Shown here: positions 1,702-62,304 of the stretch, one piece after another | Position numbering within the stretch: the stretch's first letter is position 1 | How the letters are laid out: every line of letters starts with the position of its first letter | Assembly (NCBI RefSeq): GCF_019320115.1 | Contig: NC_089591.1 | Span: 17,214,502 to 17,278,501 of the forward strand | Source: Miscanthus floridulus | Lineage: Eukaryota; Streptophyta; Magnoliopsida; Poales; Poaceae | Reading direction: 5' to 3' | Length of the DNA: 64,000 nucleotides | Notes under the pieces: generated by a model | Seen by the model: only the letters and a program-made list of their open reading frames with translations | What the model was told of the DNA's origin: nothing | Databases searched by the model: none | Translations under genes and position numbers: made by a program

Positions 1702-3045
1702 TGTCGGTGTTTCAGACCAGCGGGCCCTCAACCAACTGGTAAATTTGTACTGCGTGTTTCCAGTCCCGGATGGTGATACAAAGAGACACAAGGTTTATAC
1801 TGGTTCGGGTAATGAGCACCCTACGTCCAGTTTGAGAGATTGATCTTGTATTCCTTGCACCGAAGTGCTCGTAGTAGGGGGTTACAAGCAGGGCGAGAGA
1901 GGGAGCTAGTCCCAGGTCTCTACGTGGAGTGGCGTGGATTGCTTGAGATGTTGATCTCAGACAGCGGGGAAGCTCGAGCGTTCATCTGTGTGTTCATGCG
2001 CGACTTCGTTGCGTGGGCATAGGCCTAATCGTTCGTCCCCCTTTTTTTCTAGAAACGGCCCTAGTCCCTCCCTTTTATAGTTTAAAGGGGGACAAGGGTG
2101 ATACAGACGCTAGCTACATGGCGTCGTGCGAACGAAGGCGGCATGTCCGAGCCCTGTAGCCTATTACTGTGGCGGCGAGGGCGACGGAGTGGTCTCATCC
2201 TTGAAGTACTGGGGCGACGCGCCGGTTACATCCGGTCCTATACGTCGTGGGAGCTCCAGTGTTATCTAGAAGCGGGCATGGTGGTCGGCGTGCTGGTCAC
2301 TGTGTGTTGACTATGTGGGAAGCCAAGGCTTAGTTGGTGCCGAGGCCGAGCCATCGCGGGAGGCTCGGCAGACGTGAATTCCGGGATTGCCAAGATCTTG
2401 AAGTGGATTGCCGAGGCTTGGAGGGAGTAGTTGGTGTCATACACTGATTCTGAGGCTATGGTGACCCGGACTTGACCCCCCATGCCGCGTTGTCTCTAGG
2501 GCGGGGGTTAGGTGACACAGTGTAGTGCAGGTGCTGATCGTGGGCACAACACCAGAGCACAGTGGCCGGTAATCCCCGCCGTGCCCTGTCTAGGACGGTA
2601 TGGCGTTGACGTGACTTCCCGTCTCGTCGGCCGCTCCGCAGTGTCGAGCCGTCGTATGGCTGATATTGCGGGAGTGGTTGGCGCATTAATGGGACGCGAC
2701 GCGCTGTCGGGGAGACTGGCCGAGGCGGAAGTGACGGGTTGTTGCCGAGCCGGCTTCGAGCGAAACGGAGAATCGACATCTCGTCCGAGGCTTTACGCGC
2801 GGGGCCTCAGGCGAGACGGAGAATTGGTTCCCTGTCGAGGCCCCCTGCGCGAGGCCTCACGCGAGGCGAAGATTTGGCAGGCCGCCGAGGCCTCCCGTGC
2901 GAGGCCAGGTGCGAGGCGGAGAGCCGGTGGGTTCGGACGAGGCCGGGGTTTAACAAATGGCTTATCCTTTGGCTTTATTTTTGATGGTGTTTAAGTGATT
3001 CTTTTCGATATACGCTCAGGGTACCCTATTTTATGGTACCCGACA
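1702..3045 (-). repeat. Tat1 3' LTR (left)
   Basis: It starts TGTCGGTGTTTC and ends GGTACCCGACA on the plus strand, so on the coding strand it runs TGTCGGGTACC to GAAACACCGACA, a TG...CA LTR. It matches 16890-18233 along its whole length with scattered substitutions. Being downstream of minus-strand pol, it is the 3' LTR and would supply the poly(A) site. A TATA-like CTATAAAAGGG (minus strand, around 2070-2085) is the copy of the one in the 5' LTR. Confidence 0.92.
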
Positions 3046-5925: not shown

Positions 5926-5933
5926 CATAAATA
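5926..5933 (+). promoter_or_regulatory. TATA-like box upstream of the Tat1 antisense gene
   Basis: CATAAATA lies about 165 bases before the ATG at 6094, on the plus strand, with a pyrimidine-rich leader (CCTTGCCTCTCCCCTCC) after it. The position suits a promoter for the antisense gene. A (GA)n tract sits at about 6044-6060 in the leader. Tat2 has a TATA-like element in the equivalent place (49199-49204). Confidence 0.5.
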
Positions 5934-6093
5934 CGCAACGAGCCTTGCCTCTCCCCTCCTTACCTTGCCCGCATTAGCTTTGCCGTCTTTGAGCCGTCGC
6001 TAGAGCAGAGAGCCCCGGGAGGAAGAAGGGAGAGAGACGAGGCGGAGAGAGAGAGAGAGACTCACCGCCATAGTCGAAATCTCCATCACGCTC

Positions 6094-9000
6094 ATGACCG
6101 GCGACATTGTTATCATCGAGGTGGGCCCTTGGGGTCCATCCGACGTCACCGTGGAGATGCTTCAGTCGCTCATCGACGGCAGGCTTCTTCGCCCGGTTAC
6201 CGACCCCAGCAGGCCAGAGTGGATCGCTCCGTCGAGCGAGCCGGAGTCGAGGCCTCGTGACAGTTACATTGTAAGCTTTGTGTCCTTTCACGAGTGCGGC
6301 CTCGGCCTTCCGGCGGACCGGTTCATGCAGGCGCTCCCGCACTACTATGGCGTGGAGCTCCACAACTTCAACCCCAATTCGATCACGCAGGCGGCCATCT
6401 TCGTCGCTGTCTATGAGGGGTATCTGAGGATTGCTCCCCATTGGGAGCTATGGCTCCACCTCTTTCGGGCGGGGCATACCACCAAGCCGATAGGTATGTC
6501 GGGCACGAGAAAGGTGGTGAGGGCCGGCGGCTGCACTCTCCAAGTGCGCCAGGACCGTCAACACCTCTACATCCCGGCCCAGCTCGCGTCCACTAATCGC
6601 CGGTGGTACACGAGCTAGTTCTATCTTCGCAACGACGACGGTGGACTCCCCCCCTACACTAGGCGGATCGTGGGGAGCTGCCCGGAGAGGTGGAAGTATG
6701 GCGTCCTAAGGGAGGATCAGCCCAAGCTACAGCCACTCCTGGAGGGGTTAGAGAGGCTGTAGGACCGTGGCCTTACTACGGCCGTGGTCGTGGCCGCCTT
6801 CCACCGCCAAAGGGTGCTGCCGTTGATGGCTTAGCGGCGGCGGTTGTTTGAGATGAGGCCGGAGGAGCCGATCGAGGGCATCCGGATGTCTGCCTCTGCC
6901 CTTTTCGACGAGGAAATTCTTCGCCGAGTGAGGGAGATGGTGGAGGCGAAGCTGAGGGGAGGTGGCCTGACCCCCTTCGTGATGCGCCCGTCATGGGGGT
7001 TCCTCTCGCTGGTAAGTCACGTGCCTCTGCAGCCCCCGAGGCCTCCCCATTTCTTATTGTTTCTTGTTCCCTTATCCGTGTTCGTTGTTCCTGCAGGGGA
7101 TGAGGGACGTGCGAGCGTCCCCGCCGCCTGTTCCCGAGGACGCGAGGCGGCGGGCGGTCAACCGAGCGCACGCCGAGGTGCAGAAAAGGCGGAAGGACAC
7201 CAAGGTGGCGAAGCGCACGAAGAAGATCCTCGCGCGCGAGGAATTGGATAAGCGCCGCCGGCAGCAAAGGAAGGATGGTCTCCCGTTGGAGGAGTCCCTA
7301 TCGCCGTTGCTATCGACGGATGCCTTGGATGGAGATGACGAGGGCGAGGTGGGGCGGGGTCCCCTGGACCATCTCCCTAACATCGGGGAGACGGTGCCTA
7401 GGGCATCGACAAGCAGCCCGGTGCTTCCTGGGGGAGGAGGAGCTACCCCGGGGTCGGCAATCGCCCGCCTCAGGGCCAAGGCCGATGTGCCCGAGGCGCG
7501 GGCGCTAGGGAAGCGTGCCGTCAGCCCAGTGGGCTCATCGGCAACGGTGGAGCAGGTGGCGGCGGGGTCGACGCAACTGCCCCCGCAGAGGACCGAGGGG
7601 GCGCCGGGGTCCATCGAGGACCGGCTGGTGCCGGCGGATACAGAGGCTGTGCCTTCACTGCCACCACTGCCTTTGCAAACGAGGGTTGCCGTGCTGAAGC
7701 GGTTGCAGCCCCGCTCGAGGTAAGTGTATTTTTGGCAGAGCCATAGCATTTTCCGTTCGTTCTTCGGTCTCGTGCTGACCCTGCAAGTGTTTTGTCCTTA
7801 GCCGAAAGCGACCTGCGGAGGTGCCTACCTTGGCGCCCCTTAAGGCGCTCAAGGTGAACCCCGGCTCCACTGCCCACTGGGTGGCGGAGGCACAGGCCGC
7901 CCTACAACGTGGTGCAGCGTCGGCGAGGGCCAACCCGAAGGAGCCGGCCACCCAAGGAGGGGCTGCCGAGGTGGCCCCGACATAGACAGGAGATGGAGCG
8001 CCTCCACCCCACGATGGCGAGGCCCGTGAGTCAGATGGGGCCAAGGTGCCCTCAGCTGCCGAGGCCACCGAGATCGAGGTCCCCGGGGTCTCACAGGCTG
8101 AGGCGACGGGGGTCGGGGCGCCTAGGACCGCTGAGGCCGCAGCGGTGGTGGCCTGAGCCCCCGCGACCACCGAGGCCACGATGGTGAAGGCCGAAGCCCC
8201 CGGGACCACCGAGGCCACGATGGCAGAGGCCGGAGCCCCCAGGGCTACCGAGGCCGACGTGATTGCGGCGAGGCTATGGGCCTAAGAAGAGGAGATGAAG
8301 GCGGCGGAGGCCTCGGTGGCACCCTTGGTTCAAGGCCCGCCGTCGTCGCGGGAGGGCGCCCGGAAGGTGGAGGTCCATCCGATCTCCTCCGATGATACTT
8401 CCCAGGCGCAGGAGGTGGTCGACACCGAGGTGGCTGGCGCCGTGGAGCAGCCGGTTCCGACCTTGAGCGAGGGAAGCTCGGCCCTCGTGCGGGTTCAACC
8501 CGAGCCCCGTGGGTGGGATCACCCGCGTGTCCTATGGCAGAGCCAGGATGACCCTAAGGGGGAGCCTCTATTCGCCCTCGAAGACACGGCCGAGGGCAGG
8601 CGCTGGGACACCTTCGAGCAATACCGCCAGCTGGTGGAGCGGTCACTACAGACGGCGCTGTCCGTGGTGGCCGACGATCTGCCCAGAGTCACCCAGGTTC
8701 GCACTTTCTTTTCTCATGCAGTGTTGCCTTTTTCTGAGTTTCTTGTAGTGAATGCCCCCGGTTCTGCTTACCCAGGAGCTCAAGACCCGGTCCCTCAGGA
8801 AGTCGGTCTTTCTCCAGTAGGAGAGGGACGTCTGGGACCAGCACCAACGGCAGAAGGGCCTGCTTGCTGGCACCAACAAACTTCCGGCGGCGCGGAGCGT
8901 GGAGGTGGAGGACCTCCACCTTCGTTGTGCCGATGCAATGGTCGAGGCGGCCACGGCCTAGGAGCAGGTCGCCCCTCTAGCGGCGTGGGTCAAGGAGTTG

Positions 9001-9940
9001 GAGGAGGAGCTGACCCGTGTGGCCAGTGAGTGGGATGCCTTTAGGTCCTGGGCTGGAGAAGCCATGGCCTCGGGCAAGGTCCTTGCTGGGCAGCTAGGGG
9101 CGGAGCAGAGTGCGCACCAGTTGACGAAAGGTGCCTTGGATGAGGCCCTTACGGTGGCTGAGGCCTCTCGGACCAAGGTTGTGGTCTGGAGGGGAAAGGC
9201 CGAGGGTGAGTCCTATTCCCCTCGTTTTATTTGCTTTTTCTTATGTTCGCTCCCTAACTCCCTGGTGTAACGCAGAGCTGGGGAGAGAGGCTTCCAGGGC
9301 GGCCGAGGCTTCTCAGGTCGAGGCCCAGCGCCTGAAGGAGAAGGCCGAGGCGTCTTGGGTTGAGGCCCAGCGTTGGAAGGAGAAAGCTGAGGCTTCTCAG
9401 GTCGAGGCCCAACGCTAGGGGCAGAAGGCCGAGAGTGAGTCCCGTAGACTTCCGCCCCTGTTCTGGCTTGTATTCCTTCGCGCTCAACCTCATTCCGTTG
9501 CATTTGGCATAGAGCTGGAGAAGGATGTCACCTAGGCAGCCGAGGCCTCCGCCGCCGTGCAGGCGGTGCTTGAAACCGAGATCGGGGAGCACGATGCGTT
9601 GAAGAGCGTTGCCCGTACAGCCTGCGAGGCCCTGGAAGTTGAGGGGGTCTAGTTGGGAAGCTCGCTTGGGAGCTGCCTGATTGCGTTGAGCGGTCAAGTG
9701 GGCATGCGACTCCGAGGGGCGCTACATACGGGCGTCAAGCGTGCGCTGGCTGTCATCGCTTCGCACTATATTGGCATTGACCTCCAAGCCATCAGCGATG
9801 GCTACGTCCTGCCTGACGATGACGAGGAGGTCGACGAGGCGGTCGCGAAGCTGATGGAGGCGGTAGAGGGGCCCAGCACGGCGCTGGCCAAGCTGCTCGA
9901 AGAGGAGGTGGTCCCCAACCGCCGATGCTGGAGGCCCTGA
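6094..9940 (+). pseudogene. antisense gene of Tat1: six exons, PF04195-type domain plus coiled coils
   Basis: Plus-strand gene opposite to gag-pol. Exons: 6094-7011, 7097-7719, 7802-8696, 8776-9205, 9276-9434, 9513-9940. Every intron is GT-AG, 70-85 bp, with phases 0,2,0,1,1; the spliced frame is 1151 codons and ends at TGA 9938-9940. Exon 1 holds the 'putative gypsy type transposon' domain (FVSFHECGLGLPADRFMQAL, then NFNPNSI and LWLHLF). Exon 2 is basic and proline-rich. Exons 4-6 are rich in A, E, K and R and look like coiled coil, including repeats of EASQVEAQRxKEKA. Eleven premature stops (6616, 6760, 6832, 7983, 8154, 8283, 8818, 8959, 9416, 9533, 9650) kill it; nine are TAG. The protein's function is unknown. 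Antisense ORFs of this family are known from Tat elements. Confidence 0.85.
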
Positions 9941-37570: not shown

Positions 37571-37578
37571 ATGCTGAG
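37571..37578. repeat. target site duplication of hAT copy 1, right
   Basis: ATGCTGAG, directly after ...CTAGCTTGA. Confidence 0.8.
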
Positions 37579-37651
37579 CATAGAGAGCATGTTACATTTA
37601 CGCATCACATGCTGAAAGCATAATGACACCGACGTATGCATACTAGCACTA

Positions 37652-37659
37652 AATGAACA
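37652..37659. repeat. target site duplication of hAT copy 2, left
   Basis: AATGAACA, repeated at 38509-38516. Confidence 0.8.
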
Positions 37660-38508: not shown

Positions 38509-38516
38509 AATGAACA
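38509..38516. repeat. target site duplication of hAT copy 2, right
   Basis: AATGAACA, directly after ...GCCCAGTCTG. Confidence 0.8.
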
Positions 38517-39194: not shown

Positions 39195-39884
39195 TGTAAC
39201 AGAACCGTCCAATTTATATAAGATCAAGTACGGTTGTCCCCGTTTAGCATGTTGACGTGCACATACTTTCACTTATATAAACCCGGTAGTCTGTCGAGTG
39301 TCACGAAGGACCTCGGTAAATCAACATCACAACCAAGATCGCGTGATTAAGCAAATACACATCACATACGCAGAGTTGCAGCGGAAATAATATTACAAAT
39401 GGGTTCACAATAATAAAACAAGTTTGGGTTTCAAAACCGCTTAATGAAAACAACATAATAGTTTTCAAATAACTACATTAATATAAGTTTCAAATACAAT
39501 GCTAGCATAAGTGACATCGTCAGACAAAAGCATATAGATGAGAACTAAATATAGAGTCACCGAGCCCACCGGTGGTTAGCCACCATCTTCAACAGGTCGA
39601 GAACTTCACTTGCAACATGGTGGGATAAACCCTGAGTACTCGAATGTACTCAGCTAGACTTACCTGTCATAAACCAGAAATAAAGTGACACCAAGGATTA
39701 TGCTAGGCTTTATTAGTGGATCTTGCTGGACAACCTCTTTGCATAAAAGCTTGAGTAATCATTAGCATTATTAACCTGTACTAGCAGCGACTTTTGACCA
39801 TTTCCTACCATCTATATTAGCACATGCACTAATCAATCACTTGATTAAGTTGCAAACAATAATAACCATATTAGGTATTTCATG

Positions 39885-39921
39885 GCTCATTATCATTATC
39901 ATTATCATCATCATCATCATT
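39885..39921. repeat. CAT/ATC microsatellite in the LTR
   Basis: Runs of ATTATC and ATCATCATC. The right LTR copy has a similar tract at about 62995-63031 with one interruption. Confidence 0.75.
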
Positions 39922-41149
39922 TAACCATATCTTTAAATTTAGTGAATCTACGTTGCCGCTGCTCAGTTAAGTTCTCACTATCCGAGAGAACCGATGATTC
40001 GAATCGATTCCTATCCAGCTGGAGGGGTATTCCTCACACAAACCCTGCTTCCCTCGTCAGGGTCGCAATTAAGTCATCTTTGGTACAACTCAGGAGAAAA
40101 AAAGAAAAGTCACGGGTCCAGACAGCGCCGCATTCTCAAGGGTGACACTCTACCAGGAAGTGCAGGACTTTTAAACACCTGACCCCTTGGACTCACGCCA
40201 ATGTCCCCAAGGACATCCTTACTGCCTCCAGAATACGCATGACCCCCCGGTTCCTGGCCTGAGTCGAACTACAAGGCTTCGCGGTCGGAACGACTTATCC
40301 GGCCAGCTAAGTGTTAGGCTGCGTTCAACATGATATGAGGACGTATAGCGAATCGGTCCTTAAACGACACAGACGGGGATAGATTCACACCCAAGACCTC
40401 TATGTCTTGTTGTAGCACTACTGTCATCCCGTCCAGTCTCTTTTCATTATTAACACATGGTTCTTTTCCACGATAGCAAATATAGCCAACCGTGACCAGA
40501 GCTCATCCTACATCTCGCAGGTGACAGGAAATCACCCAACTTTTACTGGTCTAAGTATAGCTAAGCATCATTCGATCCTACACTTATTTAGGATTCATAG
40601 GATTTTATCTGGACAAGGTAAGGATATAATGCAACAATTGGTTCTAACCAATTCCTATACTTAATGCATCATCAACAATAAAAGATACTCAAGATATTTG
40701 TAAAAACATGGGAGACTTAGAATGCCCCGGAGCTTGCCTGGAATCCAACACTTGGTTAGTGTTTGTTAGACGACACTCGCTTGGTGAGCATCTCCTGTTC
40801 AGGCATGTACTCCAGGGGTCCTTCCATCTTAGTGTTCGGCTCCAACATCCCGTCCTTCACCAGGTTCATCTAGCGTACCTAGATGAGATGCAAGATGCAA
40901 GTGCATGCATATGAAGAATGGTAATATGAGATGCATCACATAATAGCATTCAAGGCAAACATAAGACCATGCAAGACATAGGCACCTAGAGTTATTTAAC
41001 TAAACATCACACAACCTATTATAAAGGGATAGTAAACATATTAGGCATAGCACACAAGTGAACTTAAGTTCAAACATTGCACACATGCATTAATCAAGAA
41101 CTAACCAACATGTTTAGCCAAAACAAAAGCAAGCTAAGGCAATCACCTA

Positions 41150-47881: not shown

Positions 47882-48354
47882 TGTCGATAGAATATTGTCG
47901 GCAGTCCACCGAGGGGCACCCCGTGATGGTAGATTGATTGGTAGAGGAGCGTGTAATCAAGAACAAGAAGGCAATAGAGACACACGAGTTATACAGGTTC
48001 AGGCCGTCGGTAGGATGTAATACCTTACTCCTGTGGTCTGTTGGTTTGCATTAGCTATCGTATGATTTGCCGTGAATTCGTAGGGGGTCCCTGCCTGCCT
48101 TATATAGTTTGGGGGGCAAGGTTACAAGTCGGTTAGATCTAAGAGATAACTAGAAAGTAATAACAGATTACAAGAAACATGGGATCGTACATATCCTATC
48201 AGATCTCATAACATCTTCAGGATATCCTCTCCGTGCCTTGCGGGGGTCGCCGAGCAGAATCGTGCCCCGCAAGTCTCCTTCTTGCAGGCTGGGCCACCCC
48301 TAGAGGCATAGCCCATGTAACCTGCTATGGGTATCTAGGGTTGTACCCCCCACA
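47882..48354 (-). repeat. Tat2 3' LTR (left)
   Basis: 473 bp, TGTCGATAGAAT ... ACCCCCCACA on the plus strand, colinear with 60390-60862. It lies downstream of minus-strand pol. Confidence 0.92.
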
Positions 48355-48371
48355 GCTAGTCCCCGAGCACC
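48355..48371 (-). other. polypurine tract of Tat2
   Basis: Minus strand GGTGCTCGGGGACTAGC directly before the 3' LTR, related to the Tat1 tract. Confidence 0.6.
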
Positions 48372-49198
48372 TTGTACCCATTGTGCAACACCGTCTTTAG
48401 ACTTACCGAGCAGGTGCGAACCAAAATCGAGCTATCCAAATCATGATCCGACCACCATAAGGAGTTGCCGAGCAGTTGTGAGAAACTGTCGAGCAGCATA
48501 CAACATCGCCGATGTATGTTCTGAACATGGCTTGTCATAAGGGTGTAAGGAGCTCAAATCCAAAATTAAAAATTCCTGCATGGTTAAGTGAAGTGTGCCC
48601 ACTTAGAATCCAAAAACAATGGTAAAGATACCTGGTTTATCCTTTGGATGCTCAGAGTCTTTCAGAAAAACAAACACATTCACCACAAGGTGAAGTGTGC
48701 CCACTTAGTCCCTGAGCCTGACAGTAGGTGACGTAGTCATGTGGTGCCAGGCTCAGAAATTAGTGAACCGTCCGAGCAGGTAGCCAGTCCCCGAGCGTAG
48801 CCTCGAGACAAAAAACAAGCACATTCACCACAAGGTGAAGTGTGCCCACTTAGTCCCCAAGCCTGACAGTAGGTGACGTAGTCATGTGGTGCCAGACTCA
48901 GAAATTAGTGAACCGTCCAAGCAGGTAGCCAGTCCCTGTGTTTTTGGCGTAGATATCGGATAAATCAAATCGCAGCGAGAAATTCGGAGTAATGGCCGTA
49001 CAGTATCAGTTACTAAGCCTCATTAAAATGTGGAGAATTCAGAGAATGTGGTGGCGATAAATGAGCGGCGTGGGCTACTGTGACGCGATAGCCCAAGTTG
49101 CGGCCCATTAAACCATTTTGGAGGAATCGATGTAGCGCTAATCGTGGGAACAGTTTCCCAAAAACCCTTAGAGTCAAGGCAGAGTGGGGGAAGTGCTT
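48372..49198. other. 3' untranslated region of Tat2 before the antisense gene
   Basis: No gene is supported. It contains a two-copy tandem repeat of period 145 bp (48666 and 48811) and a partial third match near 48585-48612 (GTGAAGTGTGCCCACTTAG). From about 49080 it grades into the leader of the antisense gene. Confidence 0.6.
48666..48942. repeat. 145-bp direct tandem repeat, two copies
   Basis: The copies begin AAAAACAAACACATTCACC (48666) and AAAAACAAGCACATTCACC (48811), and run through GGTGACGTAGTCATGTGGTG to GTAGCCAGTCCC with few changes. They lie in the same element region as the Tat1 repeats. Confidence 0.85.
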
Positions 49199-49204
49199 TA
49201 TAAC
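49199..49204 (+). promoter_or_regulatory. TATA-like box upstream of the Tat2 antisense gene
   Basis: TATAAC within GTGCTTTATAACCGCGCC, about 135 bases before the ATG at 49334, with a C-rich leader. Position and strand match the box before the Tat1 antisense gene. Confidence 0.55.
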
Positions 49205-49333
49205 CGCGCCGCCACACACATCGCCTCCTACCTCTGTCAAGCCACCTCGCTTCCTGCCTTCGCAATCCCTGTGCTCCACCTTCTACACCAATCGCGAGCA
49301 TTCGCCTCCAACCCGAGGACCAAACCATAGGAG

Positions 49334-52300
49334 ATGGCGCCGAAAAAAGGAGCCACAAAGCCAAAGAAAGTGGCCACCAGAGCCAGCCGCGATGAGGAGT
49401 GGGTGCTGTCGAAGACGTCGGCGGTGGATCTCGATAAGATGGTGGCGGCGGGCGTTCTCCCCGACCATCTTACTGCTGGATGGCGGCCAGCTAGTGGTGA
49501 GCCCTTCCCGACACCACATACTGATGAGGCTGTAGTATTTAAGGATTATTTCTGGTGAGGATTAGGGTTTCTTGTCCACCCTTTTTTGAGGGATCTTATG
49601 GAGTTTTGGGCGGTTAGCCTCTGTAATCTGCACCCCAACACCATTCTGCATGTTTCTATCTTTATCCATTTCTGCGAGGCATTTCTCGGTGTTCTGCCGC
49701 ACTTCAACCTCTTTAGGCACTTGTTCTGTCTGAAGAAGAAGGGGGGTAGCGGTTCCAAGGTGGTCAGCGACGTGTACCTGCAGCTCAGGGATGGGATGGC
49801 CAGTGAATATATCAACGTTCCGCTGAATACCTCCCTGAAAGGTTGGAACTCTAGATGGTTCTATATCAAACAAAGTCACCCATTGATTCGATGTGACATC
49901 CACCACATCCTGGTTAACCATAGTAACTGGTCAGAGCGACCCAACATCGCTGACATGGAGCAAGTAATGGAACTTCTGGAATTGAGTAAAGGCTTGGAGC
50001 TTAGGGGTGAACTGGTTGTAGCTAGTTTCATAGTTCGGCGCATCCAACCCTGCAAAGAGAGGGCCCACCCGGCATTTGACTATAAAGGTGACAACGACGA
50101 TACCCGTGAAAACACAGACCGCCTGATGAAGAAGGAAGTGATAGACCATGCCATGGATCTATTTACTTCGAATGTCTCGTTCAGCTGGCCAAAAGGAACG
50201 AAGGCTTTCAACTACACCAACCCGCCTCCTTAGGTAACCATTTTGCTTCGCATCTATCAGGCATTAATTGCCGAGCATAGGACTAACTCACTTATGAAAA
50301 GATTCATTCGCAGGATAGGGCAATATACTTTTTAGACGTGCCGAGAGCCGATTGGCCAAAAGGAGTAGATACTCGGTGGCCACTGTAGCATGAAGAGGGT
50401 GAGCCGAGCTCCTCGTCGGATAGTCCATCCCCAGTGTCAGAGAAGGTCTGCGGGAAGAGACCGGCAGTAGACGAGCCGGTCCAAAAAAGGAGAAAAACCG
50501 CTAGCTCTCATGCACACAAACCAGGAGGCATCTCTCTTGGAGAGGACCGAGCAGTTCGGCCATGATGAACTGCTGTGCTAGAGTGGTCGGACGATGACAA
50601 GGACCAGTCAGCACTTCTGTCGAGCACGACGAAGGTACCGGTGGATGATGTCGCTCCCAAGCATTGAGCAGGGGAAAGTTATGGTCGGGCAACGATGGAC
50701 GCCCCGGTGATGCAAACTACCGAAGTCCCCGAACAACGCACGGAAGGTGGGGCCTCTGAGCACCAAGAAGAGCGGCAGCCCGCTGCAGAGGCGCAGGAGT
50801 CCTCCCACAAGGCTGACCAAGCAGCCGCGCCTAGGGGGTCAGGCAGGCATCGCCGATTCAAGAAAATCAATTGGAAGACCAAACCGTAAGTATATTTGCC
50901 TTGGAGTAATTATATTATTCTTTGATTTCACCTTCTTTCTGAGAAGCCGATATTACACAGTGCGACGCCGAGGCCCATGACCTCAGAAGAAAAAACAACG
51001 ACTGCTCCCGTCCGGGAGTCCCCTAGTGCTGGACAAACAGTGGACGGGCCAGCCGCCGCTCCCAGCAGACCTGGTGATGGTGAATCGTTGGCGCACACCA
51101 CCGGCGCGTCGGCGACCGCAACCGCAGCTACGACCGAAAAAGTCGTTACCTTGGAAGCGAAAACTGTGGCTATTGTTGATGCGCCAGAGGTTACAGATGC
51201 GACTCCGTCAACTGCTGAGGAGCGAACATCGTCACCCGCAGGGGTGCCAGGAGTGGTCGAAGCGGCGGTCTGACCACGGAGCCGCCCAAAGGTGCCTCAA
51301 GCGACAGTGGAGGAGGACAAGGTCGTGGAGATCGAGCGTGCTGCGCCTGAGCCCTAGTCCGTCCGAATTCTCCGGAAACGTGGGGAAGAGGTGGTAGTCG
51401 TCAAGGAAGAAAACACCACCAGAGAGATAAAGAGGTTGAAATCCGCCGTCGCCAGAGTAATGACTCAAATCAAGGTGAGTTCCACGCCAATAACACCAAT
51501 ATATGTTGTCGGTAGATCAAGGTTTATCTCTTGCATTGTTAATCCACAGGGGATAGCTCGGACAGCCGACCAATGGCACCAGCTGATAAAGAGGATGGAG
51601 CCCCTCGCCGAGGAAAATAAGATACTCTAGGAGGCTTTAAGTCTTTCAGAGAAAAGTATTCAGAGGGCTCAGCACGAGCGGGACCTTGCAGAGTCAAATT
51701 CGTGGGACCTTGAACATCAAAATGGGGTTCTATCCGAGCGACTAACGGCTTCATCCGAGCAGCTGAAGAAGACATCCGAGGAGCTAGCAATTGTATTCGA
51801 GGAACTTAAGAAGATCGAGCAGTTGAGCAAGAAAAATGGGGAACTCGATAGTAAAACTGAACAGCTCGACCGGAAGTGCCAACAGTTGGAGGATGTATCC
51901 AAGCTAAAATCCGGTATTCTTTTTCACATAATGTGCTTTGTAGTAAGTGGCCATATATTTTTCCGTTTCTTATCTTTTGTGCTTGCAGAGCAAGATGTAG
52001 AACTCAACCAGCTTCGCCAGACCGTCGAACAAATCCGACAAGAGAAAACGAAGGAGTCAGAGCGAGCCTACAAACTGGCCGAAGAATTGAAAGGTAGGTT
52101 TCTGGTGATCAAAGTGACGCCGTAATACTTTTTTGTCGTGATGAACCATTGTAATTCTTGTAGATTATCGACATAAAACCAAGGCATAGTTCAATGTGCT
52201 GGTGCAAGAAGCCAAAGTCTAGAAGGACAACTTCAACACTATAACTACCGCAATAAAACCAGTGCTGGACTGCGTCGACGTTGAACCGGTGCCCCGTCCT

Positions 52301-52588
52301 GATGGTTGGCAGCAAGGGCCAGTCACCATTGTTCAGAGATGCAAGGCAGCATGGGAGAACTTCAAAAACTTCAACCGCGACGTCGTTTTGACCGCTGCTA
52401 CTCATGCCCTTGCGGTGGTTCGGTTCCATTATCCATCCGTCAACATCTAGTCGATAGGTGGTGGGTTCGCCGATGGGCTGAGCGACGCGCAGACCCAACA
52501 GCTAGAGGATGACGTTGAGGATGTGGCGAAAGTGCTTGTCGGCGATATAGACCTGTTTGGCGAAACAGAAGGTGTTGGTGAAGCTTAA
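49334..52588 (+). pseudogene. antisense gene of Tat2: six exons, PF04195-like domain plus coiled coils
   Basis: Plus-strand gene opposite to gag-pol. Exons: 49334-50233, 50314-50885, 50961-51474, 51550-51913, 51989-52093, 52164-52588. All introns are GT-AG, 70-80 bp, with phases 0,2,0,1,1, as in Tat1. The spliced frame is 960 codons. Exon 1 has a basic start (MAPKKGATKPKK) and the gypsy-type domain (FWAVSLCNLHPNTILHVSI, FLGVLPHFNLFRHLF). Exons 4-5 are coiled coil (QLKKTSEELAIVFEELKKIE, then QLRQTVEQIRQEKTKESE). Exon 6 has a KNFNRDVVLTAATHALAVVR-like helix. About a dozen stops disable it, including 49556, 50386, 51271, 51355, 51628, 52187, 52220 and 52448; most are TAG and the rest TGA. Function unknown. 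Confidence 0.85.
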
Positions 52589-53277
52589 AGAACTGCTCAG
52601 ATATTACCGCCTGTAATACTTGATTTGTCTGGCTATGAAGAATCTGCGTATTATCAACCCGATGCACTTTTTCCCAATATAAGCTGTGTTCGATCATTTA
52701 GTTTTCACTAAACTAGATGCCTTAGTTAGGTCGTGATCCGTAACACCGTACGTGGAGCCCATGCGTATGTTGGAGAAATAGGCGTTGTCATAAGACCGTG
52801 TCCTACCGCCCAACACGCAGAGCACCGAGCTCATGGTACGTTTGGTGGGATGTTAGAGCCTTGGTGTCCTCCAGAATTACTATTGCGAAAAAATGTTCTG
52901 CCTAGCAGCCAACTTGAGTAACGTGGCGAGAGAAATGGCTAAAGCAGTGTCCGAGCGGTTAGTTCATATCTGAAATCTAGGCCTTGACTAGCCCATAGTC
53001 CATAACTTCGAGCGCAGAGGCGCTGACACGTGTAGGATGAACAGGCATGGCCAAGGAACCATAGCCGACCAACCATAACGCAGAGGGCGGAGCCCCTAAG
53101 CACATGTAGGATGTAGTCTGGGACTGGGTCATTTCCATAGAAAACAGAAGGAAAAAAGGTGTGTTGTTTGACGATCGGCGGGCTATGTTGCGAAAATTGG
53201 AAGTGCAACACCGTCGTTGTTTTTGTAGCAAAACCTACGCGACCCGGAGGAAGCATAGTAGGTGATTTTTGGAAAAA
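52589..53277. other. spacer between the Tat2 antisense gene and the minisatellite
   Basis: Tail-to-tail region. Short open frames occur on both strands, none recognised. AT-rich stretches near 52675-52715 could hold poly(A) signals for the plus-strand gene. Confidence 0.4.
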
Positions 53278-53873
53278 TCGTGTTCGGTGATTGGGAGTTA
53301 ATGTGTTCATCGAATTGGAGATGTCGTGTTTGGCGAATTGGAGAGGTCGTGTTCGGCGAATTGGAGAGGTCGTGTTCAGCGATTTGGAGAAATCATGCTC
53401 GGCGATTTGGAGTTGCCGTACTCGGCGATTTGGAGAAATCGTGCTAGGTGAATTGGAGAAATCGTGCTCGGTGATTTAGAGTTGCCGTTCTCGGCGATTT
53501 GGAGAAATCGTGCTCGGCGAATTGGAGAAATCGTGCTCGGCGATTTGGAGTTGCCATACTCGGCGATTTGGAGAAATCGTGCTCGGCGAATTAGAGAAAT
53601 CGTGCTCGGCGAATTGGAGTAATCGTGCTCGGCGAATTGGAGAAATCATGCTCGGCGAATTGGAGAAATCGTGCTCGGCGATTTGGAGTTGCCGTACTCG
53701 GCAATTTGGAGAAATCGTGCTCGGCGAATTGGAGAAATCGTGCTCGGTGATTTGGAGTTGCCATACTCGGCGATTTGGAGAAATCGTGCTCGGCGAATTG
53801 GAGAAATCGTGCTCAGCGAATTGGAGAAATCGTGCTCGGTGAATTGGAGTAACCGTGCTCGGCGATTTGGATG
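53278..53873. repeat. 23-bp minisatellite array in Tat2
   Basis: The unit is GTGCTCGGCGAATTGGAGAAATC or a close variant (GATTTGGAG for GAATTGGAG, GTTGCCGTACTCG variants). About 26 units fill 596 bases with no spacers. Higher-order alternation of the variants is visible. Because 23 is not a multiple of three, translated frames repeat every 23 residues and stay open; I do not call a gene. It lies between integrase and the antisense gene. Confidence 0.92.
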
Positions 53874-54021
53874 TACTAGTTGAGCGTATTGGAGGCCGTC
53901 GCGGAGTGGCTTACATCCCGCTAACTGTAGTTGCAGCTTATGATGAAGGAAAAAATGTAGAGAAATTATGGAGGCCCGAACTTTATTAATATTAAAGTAA
54001 AGAATACATGTCTATGTTATT

Positions 54022-55167
54022 TCAGGGGTAGAAACATATAAGGTGCTCTATGTGCCAGGAGTTGGGAACATCAAGTCCATCTAAGTCACATAAGCGATAA
54101 GACCCTGGTCGAGTAACACCTTTTATGATGTAAGGGCCCTCCCATGGTGAAGACAGCTTGTGAAGCCCTTCGGTTTTTTGTTTTCGACGTAAGACGAGGT
54201 CACCGATCGTGAATGAACGACCTTTGACGTTACGGTTGTAATACCTCCGTAGACCTTTGAGGTACTTGGTTGTGCGAGCACAAGTAATCAGACGTTCTTC
54301 CTTGGCCCGATCAATGTCTTCTGTCCGAATAGCTGCGGCTTGGTCTTCATCGTAGTTTTCTACTCTGGGTGCTTGGAATGCAATATCCGCTGGAAGTATG
54401 GCCTCTGAGCCATAGACCATTAAATATGGAGATACGCCGGTACTGCAACTAGCTTGAGTGCGCAGTCCCCAGACCACAGCTGTTAGTTCTTTGAGCCATC
54501 TGCCCGGGTGCTTTTCTTCTTTCTGATAGAGCCTTTTCTTGAGGGCGTCGAGGATCATACCGTTAGCTCGCTCGACCTGACCGTTAGCTCTAGGATGAGC
54601 AATGGAAACGTATTTAACAGAGATGTACCTGTCCTTGCAGAAGTCCCAAAAATGATGGCCGGTAAAAGTTGTCCCGAGGTCGGTGATGATGCTGTTCGGG
54701 AGTCCGAATCTGTGTACGATGTCTTCAAAGAGCCCGACTGCTTTCTTAGCAGTAGCTGCGACGAGTGGTTTGTACTTGATCCACTTGGAGAACTTATCAA
54801 TGGCGACGTACACGTACCGGAAACCTCCTGGCGCAGGTCTGAAAGGCCCGATCATATCCAGTCCCCAGCATGCGAACGGCCAGGAAGCTGGAATGGTTTG
54901 TAATTCTTGTGCCGGCACATGTATTTGTTTGGTGAAAAATTGACACCCCTCACATCGTCGAACGAGATCTTCTACATCAGTAATAGCTGTGGGCCAGTAA
55001 AAACCTGCCCGGAAAGCTTTGCCGACCAGTGTTCTTGAAGCCGCATGATTGCCATAGGAGCCAGAGTGAATTTCAGATAGTAGCTTCATGCCATCGTCTT
55101 GGATGATGCACTTCTGCAGTATCCCTTCCTTGGCACTTTTCCTCATCAGGCTACCGTCTACCAACAC
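54022..55167 (-). CDS. integrase domain of Tat2 pol, uninterrupted 381 codons
   Basis: This cuts and joins element DNA into the host. The minus-strand frame shows an HHCC zinc region (EIHSGSYGNHAASRTL ... RRCEGCQFF). The catalytic core has its acids in GLDMIGPF, IITDLGTTF and NGQVERANGMI, and the C-terminal part reads GDLVLRRKQ and WEGPYIIKGV, ending ICFYP. TAA or TAG does not occur inside. It is the last part of the Gag-Pol polyprotein, so the methionine at 55167 is not a true start. It is the best preserved domain of the window. Confidence 0.88.
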   Translation of the reverse strand: MLVDGSLMRKSAKEGILQKCIIQDDGMKLLSEIHSGSYGNHAASRTLVGKAFRAGFYWPTAITDVEDLVRRCEGCQFFTKQIHVPAQELQTIPASWPFACWGLDMIGPFRPAPGGFRYVYVAIDKFSKWIKYKPLVAATAKKAVGLFEDIVHRFGLPNSIITDLGTTFTGHHFWDFCKDRYISVKYVSIAHPRANGQVERANGMILDALKKRLYQKEEKHPGRWLKELTAVVWGLRTQASCSTGVSPYLMVYGSEAILPADIAFQAPRVENYDEDQAAAIRTEDIDRAKEERLITCARTTKYLKGLRRYYNRNVKGRSFTIGDLVLRRKQKTEGLHKLSSPWEGPYIIKGVTRPGSYRLCDLDGLDVPNSWHIEHLICFYP

Positions 55168-55248
55168 GTAGTGCTTACTTCGGCGAATTAATCGTTCAGT
55201 TTCGATTTTGTCGGCGGGTACTTCGCCGTTGGAGAGGTATTTGATGAA

Positions 55249-55764
55249 CTATTCCCTCCAATCGGTGACCTGCGAAGGTATCGTGAGTACCAATTGCTTG
55301 GCAGGGGTTACTTCTACAACTTCCTTGTCTTCCTTAATGGATGGTGTCAAGAGGTCTTGAACGAAGACCCCCGGCGGAGCCATGGTGCGAGAAGATCCTA
55401 TCTTCGATAGCTGGTCGGCTATTTGATTTTGATCCCATACCACGTGGTGGTACTCGATGCCGTAGAATTTCCCTTCAATCTTCCTGATTTCGGCGCAGTA
55501 AGCATCCATTTTCTCACTGGAGCAGGACCAATCTTTATTAAGTCGATTGATAACTAGCGCGGAATCCCCGTATACCATGAGGCATTTGACGCCGAGCTCG
55601 ACGGCTATACGGAGGCTATGGAGACATGCTTCGTATTCCGCGGTGTTGTTGGAGACCGCGAAGTGTATGCGAAGAACGTATCTGAGTTTATCCCTTATCG
55701 GTGTGATGAACAGAATGCCCGCACCGGCCCCATTGATATTAAGGGCGCTGTCGAAGTACATCAC
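55249..55764 (-). CDS. additional archaeal-type RNase H of Tat2 pol
   Basis: It shows YFDSALN, NNTAEYEACLHSL, and YGDSALVINRLN with HHVVWDQNQIADQLSK, the acid and histidine pattern of this RNase H. The first motif has YFDSA where Tat1 has YFDGS. A TAG just upstream (at about 55837) stands where Q is expected before ALADFIAEW. A stop at 55249 separates it from integrase. Marks the element as Tat lineage. Confidence 0.85.
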   Translation of the reverse strand: MMYFDSALNINGAGAGILFITPIRDKLRYVLRIHFAVSNNTAEYEACLHSLRIAVELGVKCLMVYGDSALVINRLNKDWSCSSEKMDAYCAEIRKIEGKFYGIEYHHVVWDQNQIADQLSKIGSSRTMAPPGVFVQDLLTPSIKEDKEVVEVTPAKQLVLTIPSQVTDWRE

Positions 55765-55769
55765 CCAGT

Positions 55770-56346
55770 GCTCGGGGCAAGTGGCGGCGATGGGTTCTTG
55801 GATTTCGGTCCACTCAGCGATGAAATCGGCGAGCGCCTATGACTTTATGGTCGGCCTGCTTCTGAAGTCAATAGAGTAGGTGCCGAGCTCAACAGCCCAC
55901 TTGATGATACGACCATTGGCCTCTTTATTTCAGAGAATGTCTCTCAGAGGGAACTCAATGACCACGGTGATCTTGTAGTATTCGAAGTAATGTCGGAGCT
56001 TGCGTGAGGTGATTAAAATTGCATATAACAGCTTTTGCACCTGAGGATAACGAGTTTTGGGCTCATTAAGTACCTCGCTGATGAAATAGACCGGACGCTG
56101 TACCTTGTAGGCGTGTCCAGTTTCCTTGCGTTCGACGACAATAGCCGTACTAACAACTCGAGAAGTGGCGGCGATGTAAACCAGCAGAGTTTCATCTGGT
56201 CGTGGCGCTGTCATGATTGGAGGTTTTGTTAAAAACAATTTGAGCTGCTCGAAAGCTGTGTCTGCCTCCTCCGACCAAGAAAAAAGCTTGGAGGCCTTGA
56301 GGAGCTTGAAGAAAGGTAGCCCTTTTTCACCGAGGCCCGAGATAAA
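55770..56346 (-). pseudogene. RT connection and RNase H of Tat2 pol
   Basis: A minus-strand frame from 56238 reads the [21 protein letters not shown] tether and RNase H ([27 protein letters not shown]), with stops at each end. The TGA at about 56347-56349 stands where R is expected, fitting CGA to TGA. The remaining frame to 55840 continues in pieces. Confidence 0.75.
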
Positions 56347-57162
56347 TCAGCTTAACGCAGCCATGCAGCCTATAAGCTTCTGTACATCCTTGACACACGT
56401 CGGCCATTTCATGTTGGTGATGGCAGAGACTTTGTCAGGGTTTGGTTTGATGCCCCAAGCACTGACGATGTAGCCAAGCAGGATACCGGATGGAACTCCA
56501 AAGATGCACTTTGAAGGGTTCAGCTTCCATCGGTATTTGCTTAGGTTGGAGAAAGTTTCTTCAAGGTCGGTGATAAGATTATCGGCGGTTCTAGTCTTGA
56601 CGACCACATCGTCGATGTAGGCTTCGACGTTGAGGCCGATCTGTTGGTCGAGGCATGTCTGGATAGCCCTTTGGTAGGTCGCGCCGGCATTCTTTAGTCC
56701 GAAGGACATAGTGGTGTAGCAGTATGCACCGAAAGGCATGATGAACGATGTTTTAACCTGGTCTTCCTCCTTGAGGGAGATCTGATGGTAGCCTGAGTAA
56801 CAGTCGAGAAAGGAGAGCAACTCGCAGCCGGCGGTGGAGTCTACAACCTCGTCTATCCGAGGCAAGCCGAAGGGGTCTTTAGGGCAGTGTTTGTTAAGAT
56901 CAATATAATCAACACACATTCTCCATTCTTTATTCTTTTTCTTAACAAGAACAGGATTAGCTAACCAATTTGGATGATACACTTCTTTTATAAATCCGAC
57001 AGCTAAAAGCCGTTTTATTTCTACCCTAATAGCCTCCTTTTTGTCTGGCGCGAATCGGCGAAGTTTCTGCTTGATTGGCTTAGCGGTCGGCGAGACATTC
57101 AAGGAGTGCTCGATCTTCTCCCGTGGTACCCCCGGCATGTCTGTAGGTTTCCAAGCAAACAC
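56347..57162 (-). CDS. reverse transcriptase domain of Tat2 pol, uninterrupted 271 codons
   Basis: Copies element RNA into DNA. The frame covers MFAWKPTDMPGVPREKIEH, WLANPVLVKKKNKEWRMC, VDYIDLNKHCPKDPF, FLDCYSGYHQI, TMSFGLKNAGATYQ and the catalytic YIDD, then LGYIVSAWGIKPNPDKV. It is complete where Tat1 has its deletion. The true protein starts in gag; 57162 is just the first methionine after a TAG at 57202-57204. Confidence 0.88.
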   Translation of the reverse strand: MFAWKPTDMPGVPREKIEHSLNVSPTAKPIKQKLRRFAPDKKEAIRVEIKRLLAVGFIKEVYHPNWLANPVLVKKKNKEWRMCVDYIDLNKHCPKDPFGLPRIDEVVDSTAGCELLSFLDCYSGYHQISLKEEDQVKTSFIMPFGAYCYTTMSFGLKNAGATYQRAIQTCLDQQIGLNVEAYIDDVVVKTRTADNLITDLEETFSNLSKYRWKLNPSKCIFGVPSGILLGYIVSAWGIKPNPDKVSAITNMKWPTCVKDVQKLIGCMAALS

Positions 57163-57201
57163 ATCGGCGTTGGCACGTAGGAAGGAGACGAGCGCGCTTT
57201 C

Positions 57202-58137
57202 CTATTTGGGGTCAAGGTGAGCTCCAATTTTCACCGTCTTAGAAGGGTCGTCGAGGCCAAGGCCGATCTCCTTGACTTCCTTGGACTTGGCAGAGGCCCG
57301 GGGAGGCTCTGGGATCTCCATGTCGTCAGCAGATGCGGTCTTGGCTTCGGCGACCACGCTGGCCATCTGGATGGAGAGGTCGGTGGCTTCGGCGAGGGCG
57401 AGACTTTCTATCTTGCAGGCATAGGCGACGGAGAGGTTGGCCCATAGAGACAGGACTCCTGCAGGCGAAGGCATCTTCAACACTAGATACGCATAGTGCA
57501 GAACGGCCATGAACTTGGTCAGAGCCGGACACCCTAGTATGGCATGGTAGGTGGTGTCGAAGTCGGCGACATAAAAGTTGATATGCTCCACTCTATTGTT
57601 GGTTGCCGTGCCGAACTGTACTGGTAGGGTAATTTCCCCAAGTGGTCTGGATGCCTTGCTAGGTACCACGCCCTAGAAGGAGGAGTTTGAGGGCATGAGG
57701 TCTGTTGTCCTGAGTCCGAGCTCCCTTAAAGCCCCGGCGAAGAGTAGATTCAAAGCGCTCCCACCGTCGATGAGGACTTTTCTAAATAGCACCTTCTGGA
57801 CAGTCGCATCAAGGATGAGGGAAAAACGCCCTATGTAGGGTATGTCCACCCACTGGTCAGCTCTGCTGAAGGTGATGGAGACTTCGGACCATGGACGATA
57901 GCTAGGGTTGGCGGTAGTTTCTTCTGAGACTATGGCGAGCACTCGTCGGGCGGTGAGCTTCCGTTCCCTTCTGCTTTCGTTGGAGGTGAAGCCCCCGAAG
58001 ATGGTGGTGACCACCTTGTCGTGGTCCTGGAAGGCGTTATTATTATCCCCTGGTGGTCGGCGTCCTCCGTTCCCACCATTGTCGTCGTTGTACTTTTTCT
58101 CCTGGAACTCCTTAGCCAAACTAAGGCAATCTTTCAT
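57202..58137 (-). pseudogene. protease region of Tat2 polyprotein
   Basis: The minus strand reads the end of gag (MKDCLSLAKEFQEKK), then the retropepsin motif VLIDGGSALNLLFA at about 57775-57735. A TAG (about 57673-57675) follows, then MVPSKASRPLGEITLPVQFG and YHAILGCPALTKFMA. The frame ends with a TAG at 57202-57204 in the same place as in Tat1. Both stops stand where Q is plausible. Confidence 0.8.
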
Positions 58138-60341
58138 CTTGTGTTTGGCGGTTTTGTGCAGGGGGCACGGGCCATCGAGGATCTTCTTGTACTGCTCATC
58201 ATAGTTACGCTTTGCGTGCGGCTCATTGACGTTGGCAACAAAGTGATTTGGTTGGCAGCGGCGATTCTGACCAGGTTTGAATCTATCTGGCCGATCATGT
58301 TCGCTGTCCCGGTGGAAACTATGGTCATCGTAGCGGCGATCATTGTACTGTCAGTTGTCGTTGCGGTCATCATGGCGGTGAATGTTGTGCTATCGGTCGT
58401 CGTTCCAGTCGTCATGGCGGCGAGGCGAGCGATTAGTGCCCGTATCTTCGTTAAAATGCACCTTCGCTTCCTCGGCGTCAGCATACTGGTTGGCGGTTGT
58501 GATCATCTCGCCGATGCCGGTAGGTGGCTTTCTATTGAACTTAGAACGGAGTTCTCGATGATGAAGTCCTTGGACGAAGGCGGTGATGACTTCGGCTTCT
58601 GTGATGTTGGGAATAGAATTCCTCATCTCGGAGAAGCGTCTGATGTAGCTGCGGAGTAGTTCGGATGGCTTTTGGTTGATGCGGTTGAGATCGTGCTTGG
58701 TGCCTGGCTGCCTGCAAGTGGCCATGTAGTTGTCAGTGAAAACTCTCTTCAGATCTTCCCAAGAGCCGATGGAGTCCGGGGCGAGGCTTGTGAACCAGCT
58801 CATGGCGGCTGGCGTGAGCATAACAGGGACATAGTTTGCCATGACGTTGGTGTCTCCTCTGGCGGCGCGAACGGTGGTGGCGTAAGCCTGTAGCCACTGA
58901 GTTGGGTTCATCCTTCCTTCATAGGACTCGACTCCAGTGATTTTGAAACCATGGGGCCACTGGAGCGTTCAAAGTGCCCTGGTGAACGTAGGGGGCCCTT
59001 CTGGGCTGCCGGGACCGACATCGGCAGTATTGTCGACGACGATTGGCTCCAGAGCTGAGTCTGGGTTGCCATATTCCTGCTTGTACTCCTGGCGACGTTG
59101 TACTTCATCTTCATGGCACCCGAAACGTCGTTGGTTGATACGCCGTCGTGCGTCCCGAAGGTTGCTGAGGTGCACTCGGGCGTCCTGTTTGACCTCTTGG
59201 TCGTGCTGGCGATGATGCTCGGCACGGTGGCCTCCAACTCCCCCTTGGGGAGGTGGTGACTGGTCGGCGAAGCGGCTTTGACTAGGGTGGTGATTGGATC
59301 TAGGATCAACTGATCAGCGGATCACGCTTGTGGAGCATGAAGGTCTCTAAACTTCTTGGATCTCGTTAACTTGACAGTGTGCCGCTTTAAGCATAGCGGC
59401 GACCTTGGCGAGCTCGGGCATCTACGGGAGGTGAGCAAGTTCATTGGCGGCCACTGCCAAATTAGCGCTCGGAGTCTTGAAAATGTCATGGTCGTCAACG
59501 CGGAGGAATTCTTCGTTGAGGTTATGATGGAGGGGCCTTCCTTGTGAATCAAACTAGTTATCATGAGTGGCCTTGGCCATTGTGATGGCGCATTCATTAT
59601 CACGCCGTTGTGCGCAGTTGGCGTTCCTGTTTTCATGGGCGGCGCGTTCCTCATCTGTTTCGCCATTCCGGGGGGGCTGTCGATACTGACGTTGAAAATC
59701 GCGCCACCCTGGAAAGGCAAGAGAGGAGGTTGCTTGGTGAAGGTCTCGGCGAGGGGCTCAGTGGATCCTTAAGATTCAGAGTCCGGATTTTCCTCAAGGA
59801 TAGTTTGGAGAGATGCTCTGAGACCCTGGCCGGCGTGCAACATGTTGACGGTTGGTGGAAATTGGTCGGCGAGCTGGTCGGTGAATTTGCCCCTTAGGGC
59901 GTCTTGATATGTAGTTGTGGTGTTGGTGAGCCCGAAAGGCAGGGCAGCGGACCCTGGAGTCTATTGAGCATTGAACGTTGACAGATCAGGATCGGAGGGT
60001 GCTCAGTGCTGAACAAGGGTGTCTAGAGCCAACTCAGCAATGGAGAGGCAATCGGCGAGTTTTAGGCCGACCTGATCGATAGATTCGATCAGATCGTTGT
60101 TGTTGACATGCCTCCTCTGGTAGCAAGGAAGCGAGCAGCGGGTGGCTGATGGAGTCAACCCCAAAAGTGGTTCCAAGATTGGATCTATAGTTGTAGGTAC
60201 AAGGGTGGTCGGTGCAGAATAGATCTGCATTGGCTCGAGAAGCTCTCCAACTCCGTCGGCGCTGATGACCCACGTGATGGATCCAACCGTGAAGATCTGG
60301 CCGGGCTGCGGGAGGGACGAAGAGCCTGTAGAAAAAACCAT
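58138..60341 (-). pseudogene. gag of Tat2
   Basis: It starts at the minus-strand ATG at 60341 (MVFSTGSSSLPQPGQIF), 48 bases after the LTR. The N-terminal half runs to about 59320 with stops near 60003, 59940 and 59770. A frameshift near 59240-59300 follows, then VHLSNLRDARRRINQRRFG and the gag core (58911-58390; NPTQWLQAYATTVRAARG, WFTSLAPDSIGSWEDLKRVF, SYIRRFSEMRNSIPNI). The C-terminal part is rich in D, H and R. A TGA lies near 58969. Confidence 0.8.
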
Positions 60342-60369
60342 CTTGTTCAACAAGGAAACAGCACGCACA

Positions 60370-60389
60370 CCCCTACCTAGTGTGCCAAC
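60370..60389 (-). other. primer binding site of Tat2
   Basis: Minus strand GTTGGCACACTAGGTAGGGG, directly after the 5' LTR. It matches the Tat1 site at most positions. Confidence 0.65.
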
Positions 60390-60862
60390 TGTCGACAAAA
60401 TATCATCGGCAGTCCACCGAGGGGCACCCCGTGATGGTAGATTGATCGGTAGAGGAGCGTGTAATCAAGAACAAGAAGGCAACAGAGACACACGAGTTAT
60501 ACAGGTTCAGGCCGTCGGTACGACGTAATACCTTACTCCTGTGGTCTGTTGGTTTGCATTAGCTATCGTATGATTTGCCGTGAATTCGTAGGGGGTCCCT
60601 GCCCGCCTTATATAGTCCGGGGGGCAAGGTTACAAGTCGGTTAGATCTGAGAGATAACCGGAAAGTAATAACAGATTACAAGAAACATGGGATCGTACAT
60701 ATCCTATCAGATCTCGTAACATCTTTAGGATATCCTCTCCGTGCCTTGCGGGGGTCGCCGAGCAGAATCGTGCCCTGCAAGTCTCCTTCTTGCAGGCTGG
60801 GCCACCCCTAGAGGCATAGCCCATGTAACCTGCCATGGGTATCCGGGGTCATACCCCCCACA
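60390..60862 (-). repeat. Tat2 5' LTR (right)
   Basis: 473 bp, TGTCGACAAAAT ... CCCCCCACA. It lies upstream of gag on the minus strand and would drive genomic RNA. Confidence 0.92.
60607..60615 (-). promoter_or_regulatory. TATA box in the Tat2 5' LTR
   Basis: Minus strand GACTATATAAGGCGGG. The left LTR has CTATATAAGGCAGG in the same place. About 250 bases into the LTR in the direction of transcription. Confidence 0.65.
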
Positions 60863-62302: not shown

Positions 62303-62304
62303 GC

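Follow-up and report, generated by a model that had tools for sequence, protein, structure and literature searches.

An antisense open reading frame (ORF) with a TRP28 domain is a recognised trait of Retand elements (PMC11963269, PMC6317226), a lineage marked by an additional RNase H domain (aRH), which is located between RT/RH and integrase (PMC6317226). In Vicient 2025, where ORFs of at least 600 bp are listed, the Retand TRP28 domain (Transposase_28, PF04195) lies in antisense between pol and the 3′ LTR with tandem repeats nearby, and other Retand antisense ORFs match Smc, Mis12 and similar proteins (PMC11963269). In Neumann 2019, reverse extra ORFs located 3′ of the polyprotein are termed eORF-3′R, Transposase_28 is reported in 23% of Retand elements, and the extra ORFs, taken as uninterrupted frames of at least 250 codons and forming 314 groups in Ty3/gypsy, are read as independent acquisitions (PMC6317226). 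The maize element Grande carries gene23, an accessory gene in antisense that has a promoter of its own and encodes a nuclear protein (PMC7264820). Regarding introns, the antisense region is treated as ORFs in the main text of Vicient 2025, in which the word 'intron' does not occur (PMC11963269); the sections of Neumann 2019 consulted mention an intron only for Ogre (PMC6317226); those of a 2020 review do not use the word, yet call for the study of antisense and spliced transcripts (PMC7264820); and a 2025 review describes plant LTR elements as generally intron-free, Ogre and EVADE excepted (PMC12786077). Mobile-element genes with spliceosomal introns are likewise known among the antisense homing endonuclease genes of group I introns, although element and protein differ from those of the Retand antisense gene (PMC9548176).

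The window analysed here, a stretch of 64,000 nt from Miscanthus floridulus (NC_089591.1, positions 17,214,502 to 17,278,501; source genome of 2.68 Gb), contains two putative members of this lineage, Tat1 and Tat2 (Table 1). Tat2, of the Ty3/gypsy type, lies on the minus strand (47882–60862) and is bounded by LTRs of 473 bp, with its domains in the order gag, RT, RVT_3-type RNase H and integrase; this RNase H, placed between RT and integrase, occupies the Retand position for aRH and is putatively of the archaeal type. Both the six-exon gene of the plus strand and the minisatellite sit between integrase and the 3′ LTR, the latter representing the Retand trait of tandem repeats from pol to the 3′ LTR, found in about half of the elements. 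The PF04195 domain of exon 1 (E 3.4e-16 in Tat2, 5.3e-17 in Tat1) is encoded on the strand opposite to pol, between pol and the 3′ LTR, so that domain, position and nearby repeats agree with the TRP28 frames of Vicient 2025, from which the present case differs in being modelled as a multi-intron gene (PMC11963269); several eORFs as defined in Neumann 2019 would be united by a spliced model (PMC6317226). The introns of Ogre and EVADE, also in plant LTR elements, belong to the sense gag-pol RNA, whereas those considered here lie in an antisense gene (PMC12786077). The likeness to Grande gene23, compared by description only, comprises antisense orientation, a conserved TATA box and NLS-like stretches (PMC7264820). 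In the literature consulted, which was covered in part, an antisense gene with several introns was not found described. The gene is of a known kind, its architecture seems undescribed, and there is evidence of its age and of selection.

Table 1. Features of the Tat1 and Tat2 elements in the window (positions counted from its first letter)
Feature	Position	Strand	Remarks
Tat1 3′ LTR	1704..3045	-	Partner 16892-18233; 92.5% identity
Tat1 TATA-like box CATAAATACG	5926..5935	+	168 nt upstream of ATG; CATAAATA in 20/20 rows
Tat1 gene, exons 6094-7011, 7097-7719, 7802-8696, 8776-9205, 9276-9434, 9513-9940	6094..9940	+	Six exons
Tat2 3′ LTR	47882..48354	-	5′ copy 60390-60862; 95.3% identity; 5-bp duplication AAGGT at both ends
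Tat2 TATA box CTTTATAACC	49196..49205	+	138 nt upstream of ATG; core in 20/20 rows
Tat2 exon 1, 900 nt	49334..50233	+	Ends in phase 0; TRP28 domain; in-frame stops 49556, 50231
Tat2 exon 2, 572 nt	50314..50885	+	Phase 2; disordered linker; bipartite NLS-like stretch, residues 348-361
Tat2 exon 3, 514 nt	50961..51474	+	Phase 0; linker
Tat2 exon 4, 364 nt	51550..51913	+	Phase 1; coiled-coil-like
Tat2 exon 5, 105 nt	51989..52093	+	Phase 1; 105 nt also in 40/41 copies and in family A
Tat2 exon 6, 425 nt	52164..52588	+	Conserved C-terminal motif; stop TAA in 38/41 copies
Tat2 introns 50234-50313, 50886-50960, 51475-51549, 51914-51988, 52094-52163	50234..52163	+	80, 75, 75, 75, 70 nt
Minisatellite, 23/69-bp units	53269..53871		Between six-exon gene and integrase of Tat2
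Tat2 gag 58393-58911, RT 56350-57162, RVT_3-type RNase H 55252-55764, integrase 54025-55167	54022..58911	-	Antisense to six-exon gene

With a rate of 1.3e-8 substitutions per site and year, the LTR identities correspond to insertion ages of about 1.9 My for Tat2 versus 3.0 My for Tat1. Elsewhere in the window, direct repeats of 93.9% identity (39194–40907 and 62304–64000, the second truncated by the window end) flank Tat2 and are perhaps the LTRs of an element hosting it as a nested insertion; a long inverted repeat (36720–38509, 85% identity to its own reverse complement) is perhaps a foldback or Mutator-like element; and two direct repeats spaced by 1.9 kb (31035–31473 and 32905–33336, 94.3% identity) are perhaps the LTRs of a short element.

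The gene of Tat2 is likely to be the degraded remnant of an accessory gene long carried by Tat/Retand Ty3-gypsy elements, a gene which would be transcribed in antisense from its own TATA box, spliced by the host and translated into a nuclear protein. An earlier note had drawn its six exons and those of Tat1 by eye; the coordinates given for the Tat2 gene are correct, and the exon lengths of both genes (for Tat1, 918, 623, 895, 430, 159 and 428 nt) were reproduced exactly, together with the phases 0,2,0,1,1 in each. Both genes are antisense to gag-pol, all ten introns are GT-AG, and those of Tat1 measure 85, 82, 79, 70 and 78 nt. With 12 in-frame stops in Tat2, where the final codon of exon 1 is an in-frame TAG, and 11 in Tat1, both window copies are dead; TAG accounts for 16 of these 23 stops, which would fit decay of methylated cytosines. 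Exons 5 (9301–9433) and 3 (8156–8255) of Tat1 contain tandem repeats with unit lengths of 42 and 39 bp, multiples of three, so that coiled coil and linker appear to lengthen by in-frame repeats. A blind test with a simple gene finder was run on Tat1, Tat2 and two further families, A and B; on the stop-ridden window copies it recovered only intron 1 and the intron 2 donor of the Tat1 model and only intron 5 of the Tat2 model, and it found none of the family B introns and the first three of family A.

The two genes had been described as unrelated-looking, a view that does not hold, since their proteins are homologous (BLASTP E 1.2e-19, with 25% identity across 245 aligned columns). This match stops 19 residues short of junction 1 in both proteins, a second one is C-terminal (E 3.6e-4), and the family profiles match over exon 1 with E 1.3e-26. 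Past exon 1 the profile alignment is loose, with junctions 1 to 5 of Tat1 and Tat2 offset by 17, 5, 4, 17 and 7 residues; junctions 1 and 4 are not brought together, which counts against shared positions. Protein searches found ten annotated proteins, nine with exon 1 of Tat1 and one, Lolium P0001, with the whole of Tat2; exon 1 of Tat2 as query matched no protein, and no match was obtained among PDB sequences or viral contigs. Six of the ten are from M. floridulus (P0002–P0004, P0008–P0010), and among these the Tat1 junctions are crossed free of intron-derived residues by three (junction 1), six (junction 2), three (junction 3) and three (junction 5); junction 4, judged by eye, is crossed by P0003 and P0004, and in the remaining proteins the stretch is missing or exons are skipped.

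The age of the introns is addressed with families A and B, for each of which one gene was read, the evidence base being one genome together with annotated Digitaria and Lolium proteins. In family A the gene (L082, reverse strand) forms an uninterrupted frame of five exons (148–1020, 1100–1473, 1550–2298, 2381–2485, 2549–2763; last intron placed by eye) with phases 0,2,1,1, a penultimate exon of 105 nt as in Tat2, and no intron 3. In the family B gene (L083), introns 1, 2 and 3 are present, as placed by eye, introns 4 and 5 were not seen, and the junction peptides match on both sides (MRPEPGFFEF/ and PTSQ/ILVARSRKKS, the slash marking the junction); phase 2 was taken from the exon-3 side because exon 2 is frameshifted. 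A tree of seven exon-1 sequences places Tat1 with Digitaria, and B, Lolium, Tat2 and A on the other branch; with Lolium P0001 as query, 63 matches were obtained, some of them within the Tat2 family. Introns 1–3 are thus found in Tat1, Tat2 and B and introns 4–5 in Tat1, Tat2 and A, and both sets therefore probably predate the split of Tat1/Digitaria from B/Lolium/Tat2/A, some having been lost in A and B. The proposal that an intron-bearing gene preceded the separation of the families agrees with these subsets of the same introns in the same phases, no differing intron positions having been seen in the one gene per family. The six-exon layout itself stands for Tat1 and Tat2 and is not universal, since A is without intron 3 and B without introns 4–5; because both keep subsets, the layout is probably older than the separation of the families, although not every intron is kept.

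Regarding selection, each exon-1 search scored 150 candidates, out of 29,583 with Tat2 and 27,647 with Tat1, and the window copy of Tat2 was joined by 40 whole genes taken down the exon-1 ranking (73–94% identity to the window copy, median 86%); this sample of 41 is biased to well-kept copies, because they were chosen by exon-1 matches, with 30 of the 40 stop-free in the matched stretch. The start codon is ATG in all 41. Donors of introns 1–5 are GT in 41, 32, 40, 39 and 40 of the genes, and acceptors are AG in 41, 41, 39, 40 and 39. Taken singly these sites are unremarkable, as elsewhere in the gene GT is kept in at least 95% of the copies at 50 of 179 sites and AG at 114 of 267. Taken as pairs, the GT..AG of the model have a mean conservation of 0.911 versus 0.544 for 254 other pairs of the same spacing; among 20000 random sets of five pairs, 24 were as well conserved as the model set. 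At the intron 2 donor (50886), GT is missing in nine copies, seven of which have AT with the rest of the donor intact; either the G has decayed to A or an AT donor is tolerated there.

Under the modelled phases, diversity is highest at codon position 3 in every one of the six Tat2 exons (overall 0.196 versus 0.106 and 0.099 for the other positions; introns 0.170). The pN/pS falls from 0.91 for changes in one copy to 0.55 for those in two or three copies and 0.32 for those in at least four; for the last class it is 0.32 in the model frame (bootstrap 0.27–0.36) versus 0.85 and 0.89 in the wrong frames, and 0.39 in the model frame when exon 1 is left out. Wrong frames give 0.80 and 0.64 for one-copy changes, and introns read as codons 0.64, 0.83 and 0.62, with wide intervals. 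The Tat1 sample, 20 genes covered over exons 1–2, behaves alike, with ATG in 20 of 20, GT in 20 and AG in 19 for intron 1, GT and AG each in 18 for intron 2, and pN/pS of 0.75, 0.40 and 0.24 for changes in one, two and at least three copies, versus 1.28 and 1.22 in the wrong frames for the last class. A 1705-aa 'open frame' in the Tat1-family copy L081 was rejected as an assembly gap, with 4500 N in 5401 bases. The earlier claim that the gene has been kept under selection is borne out by the values for shared changes in Tat2 (0.32, at least four of 41 copies) and in Tat1 exons 1–2 (0.24); both, calculated over copies rather than on a tree, stand in for a dN/dS on internal branches and are not near 1. 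The pattern is that of a gene apparently selected while the elements were active and then decaying after insertion.

The decay itself is extensive, as the frame is open in only one of the 41 Tat2 copies and all ten canonical splice dinucleotides are kept in 28. Stops are no rarer among shared changes (0.049, 0.047 and 0.047 stops per N change), and every stop change shared by at least four copies is C/T or G/A, which may be explained by recurrent cytosine decay or by help in trans from intact copies. Between 49556 and 52448 there are 77 in-frame stop sites across the 41 copies, 16 of them common to 5–11 copies, and TAG makes up 151 of the 224 in-frame stops, suggestive of recurrent cytosine decay or of a spread of broken copies. 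The length change of exons 1 to 6 is divisible by three in 39, 24, 30, 35, 40 and 37 of 41 copies; exon lengths were used for this frame test because the count of exon gap runs shared by at least three copies (six not in threes, one in threes) is uninformative.

In working copies, transcription would run against gag-pol from an internal TATA promoter belonging to the gene; the conserved TATA boxes of both families would fit a gene with its own promoter, as for gene23. The host would splice the antisense transcript at up to five short introns, and the product, of about 1000 residues, would comprise a TRP28 domain, a basic NLS-like stretch, a disordered linker, a long coiled coil and a C-terminal motif. 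NLS-like stretches occur in exon 2 of both Tat1 and Tat2, the last exon ends in the conserved motif, and the later exons look like linker plus coiled coil in a structure prediction of Digitaria P0005 with 10 sequences, whose mean pLDDT is 43. These features would fit a nuclear, self-associating accessory protein, most likely a factor for the expression, nuclear entry or integration of the element. Transposition would leave such introns in place, since it proceeds through RNA of the other strand, where they are not recognised as introns. Precise intron loss was found in 0 of 205 cases (five introns in 41 Tat2 copies), with three introns shorter than 50 nt; a spliced exon 1/exon 2 probe had no match in the genome, a negative without a genome-wide positive control, and 40 of the 41 Tat2 copies would match this junction-1 probe if spliced. 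The sequence itself shows the homology, where the introns lie and in which phases, the conserved TATA boxes, and selection on both reading frame and splice sites; transcription, splicing, nuclear location and function are predicted from these.

The shared layout would not date to a single acquisition if Tat1 and Tat2, or their ancestors, had separately captured related genes of a single intron-bearing host family, or if their introns had arisen later at matching sites. This is in line with Neumann 2019, where the diversity of extra ORFs is taken as independent acquisition (PMC6317226). However, both window elements share the place of the gene between integrase and 3′ LTR, its antisense orientation and the type of TATA promoter, subsets of the same introns recur in families A and B, and similarity to TRP28 is not reported outside transposable elements in the text consulted of Vicient 2025 (PMC11963269), so that separate origins appear unlikely. 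Alternatively, the antisense RNA rather than a protein may be what matters, with spliced antisense transcripts regulating the sense RNA through pairing or silencing; non-coding antisense transcripts are known from other elements, a dual function has been discussed (PMC7264820), and most Tat2 copies are broken. Purifying selection nevertheless tracks the reading frame, and the frame-specific pN/pS already disfavours such a role, which is accordingly considered improbable.

The model might also be a fit by eye, in which GT/AG pairs were picked until the phases agreed in two unrelated ORF-rich regions. The sites in the earlier note were indeed chosen by eye, blind gene finding did not recover the model in either stop-ridden window copy or in family B, and single splice dinucleotides are no better conserved than many others. 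Nonetheless, the conservation of the GT..AG pairs in 41 copies, the codon periodicity in every exon, the annotated proteins that cross the junctions and the three family A introns found blind make such an artefact very hard to credit.

The reading as an old antisense accessory gene bears on the other frames described in this lineage, and the Smc- and Mis12-like antisense ORFs may be the coiled-coil exons 3–6 of the same gene. By extension, it is somewhat favoured that the diverse Tat/Retand antisense ORFs are exons of one ancient multi-intron gene, and that their heterogeneity and multiple acquisition are largely an artefact of unspliced ORF calls and of fast middle exons. Grass genomes are rich in Retand elements, with at least 150 scored of more than 27,000 first-look candidates in each of the Tat1 and Tat2 families here, and the origin and function of the antisense ORF they carry are a standing puzzle. 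A single gene model with fixed phases makes this puzzle testable, through junction transcripts, whole-protein alignment and a search for the origin by intron positions, and it would provide a case of introns that persist within a retroelement by lying antisense to the RNA that is copied.
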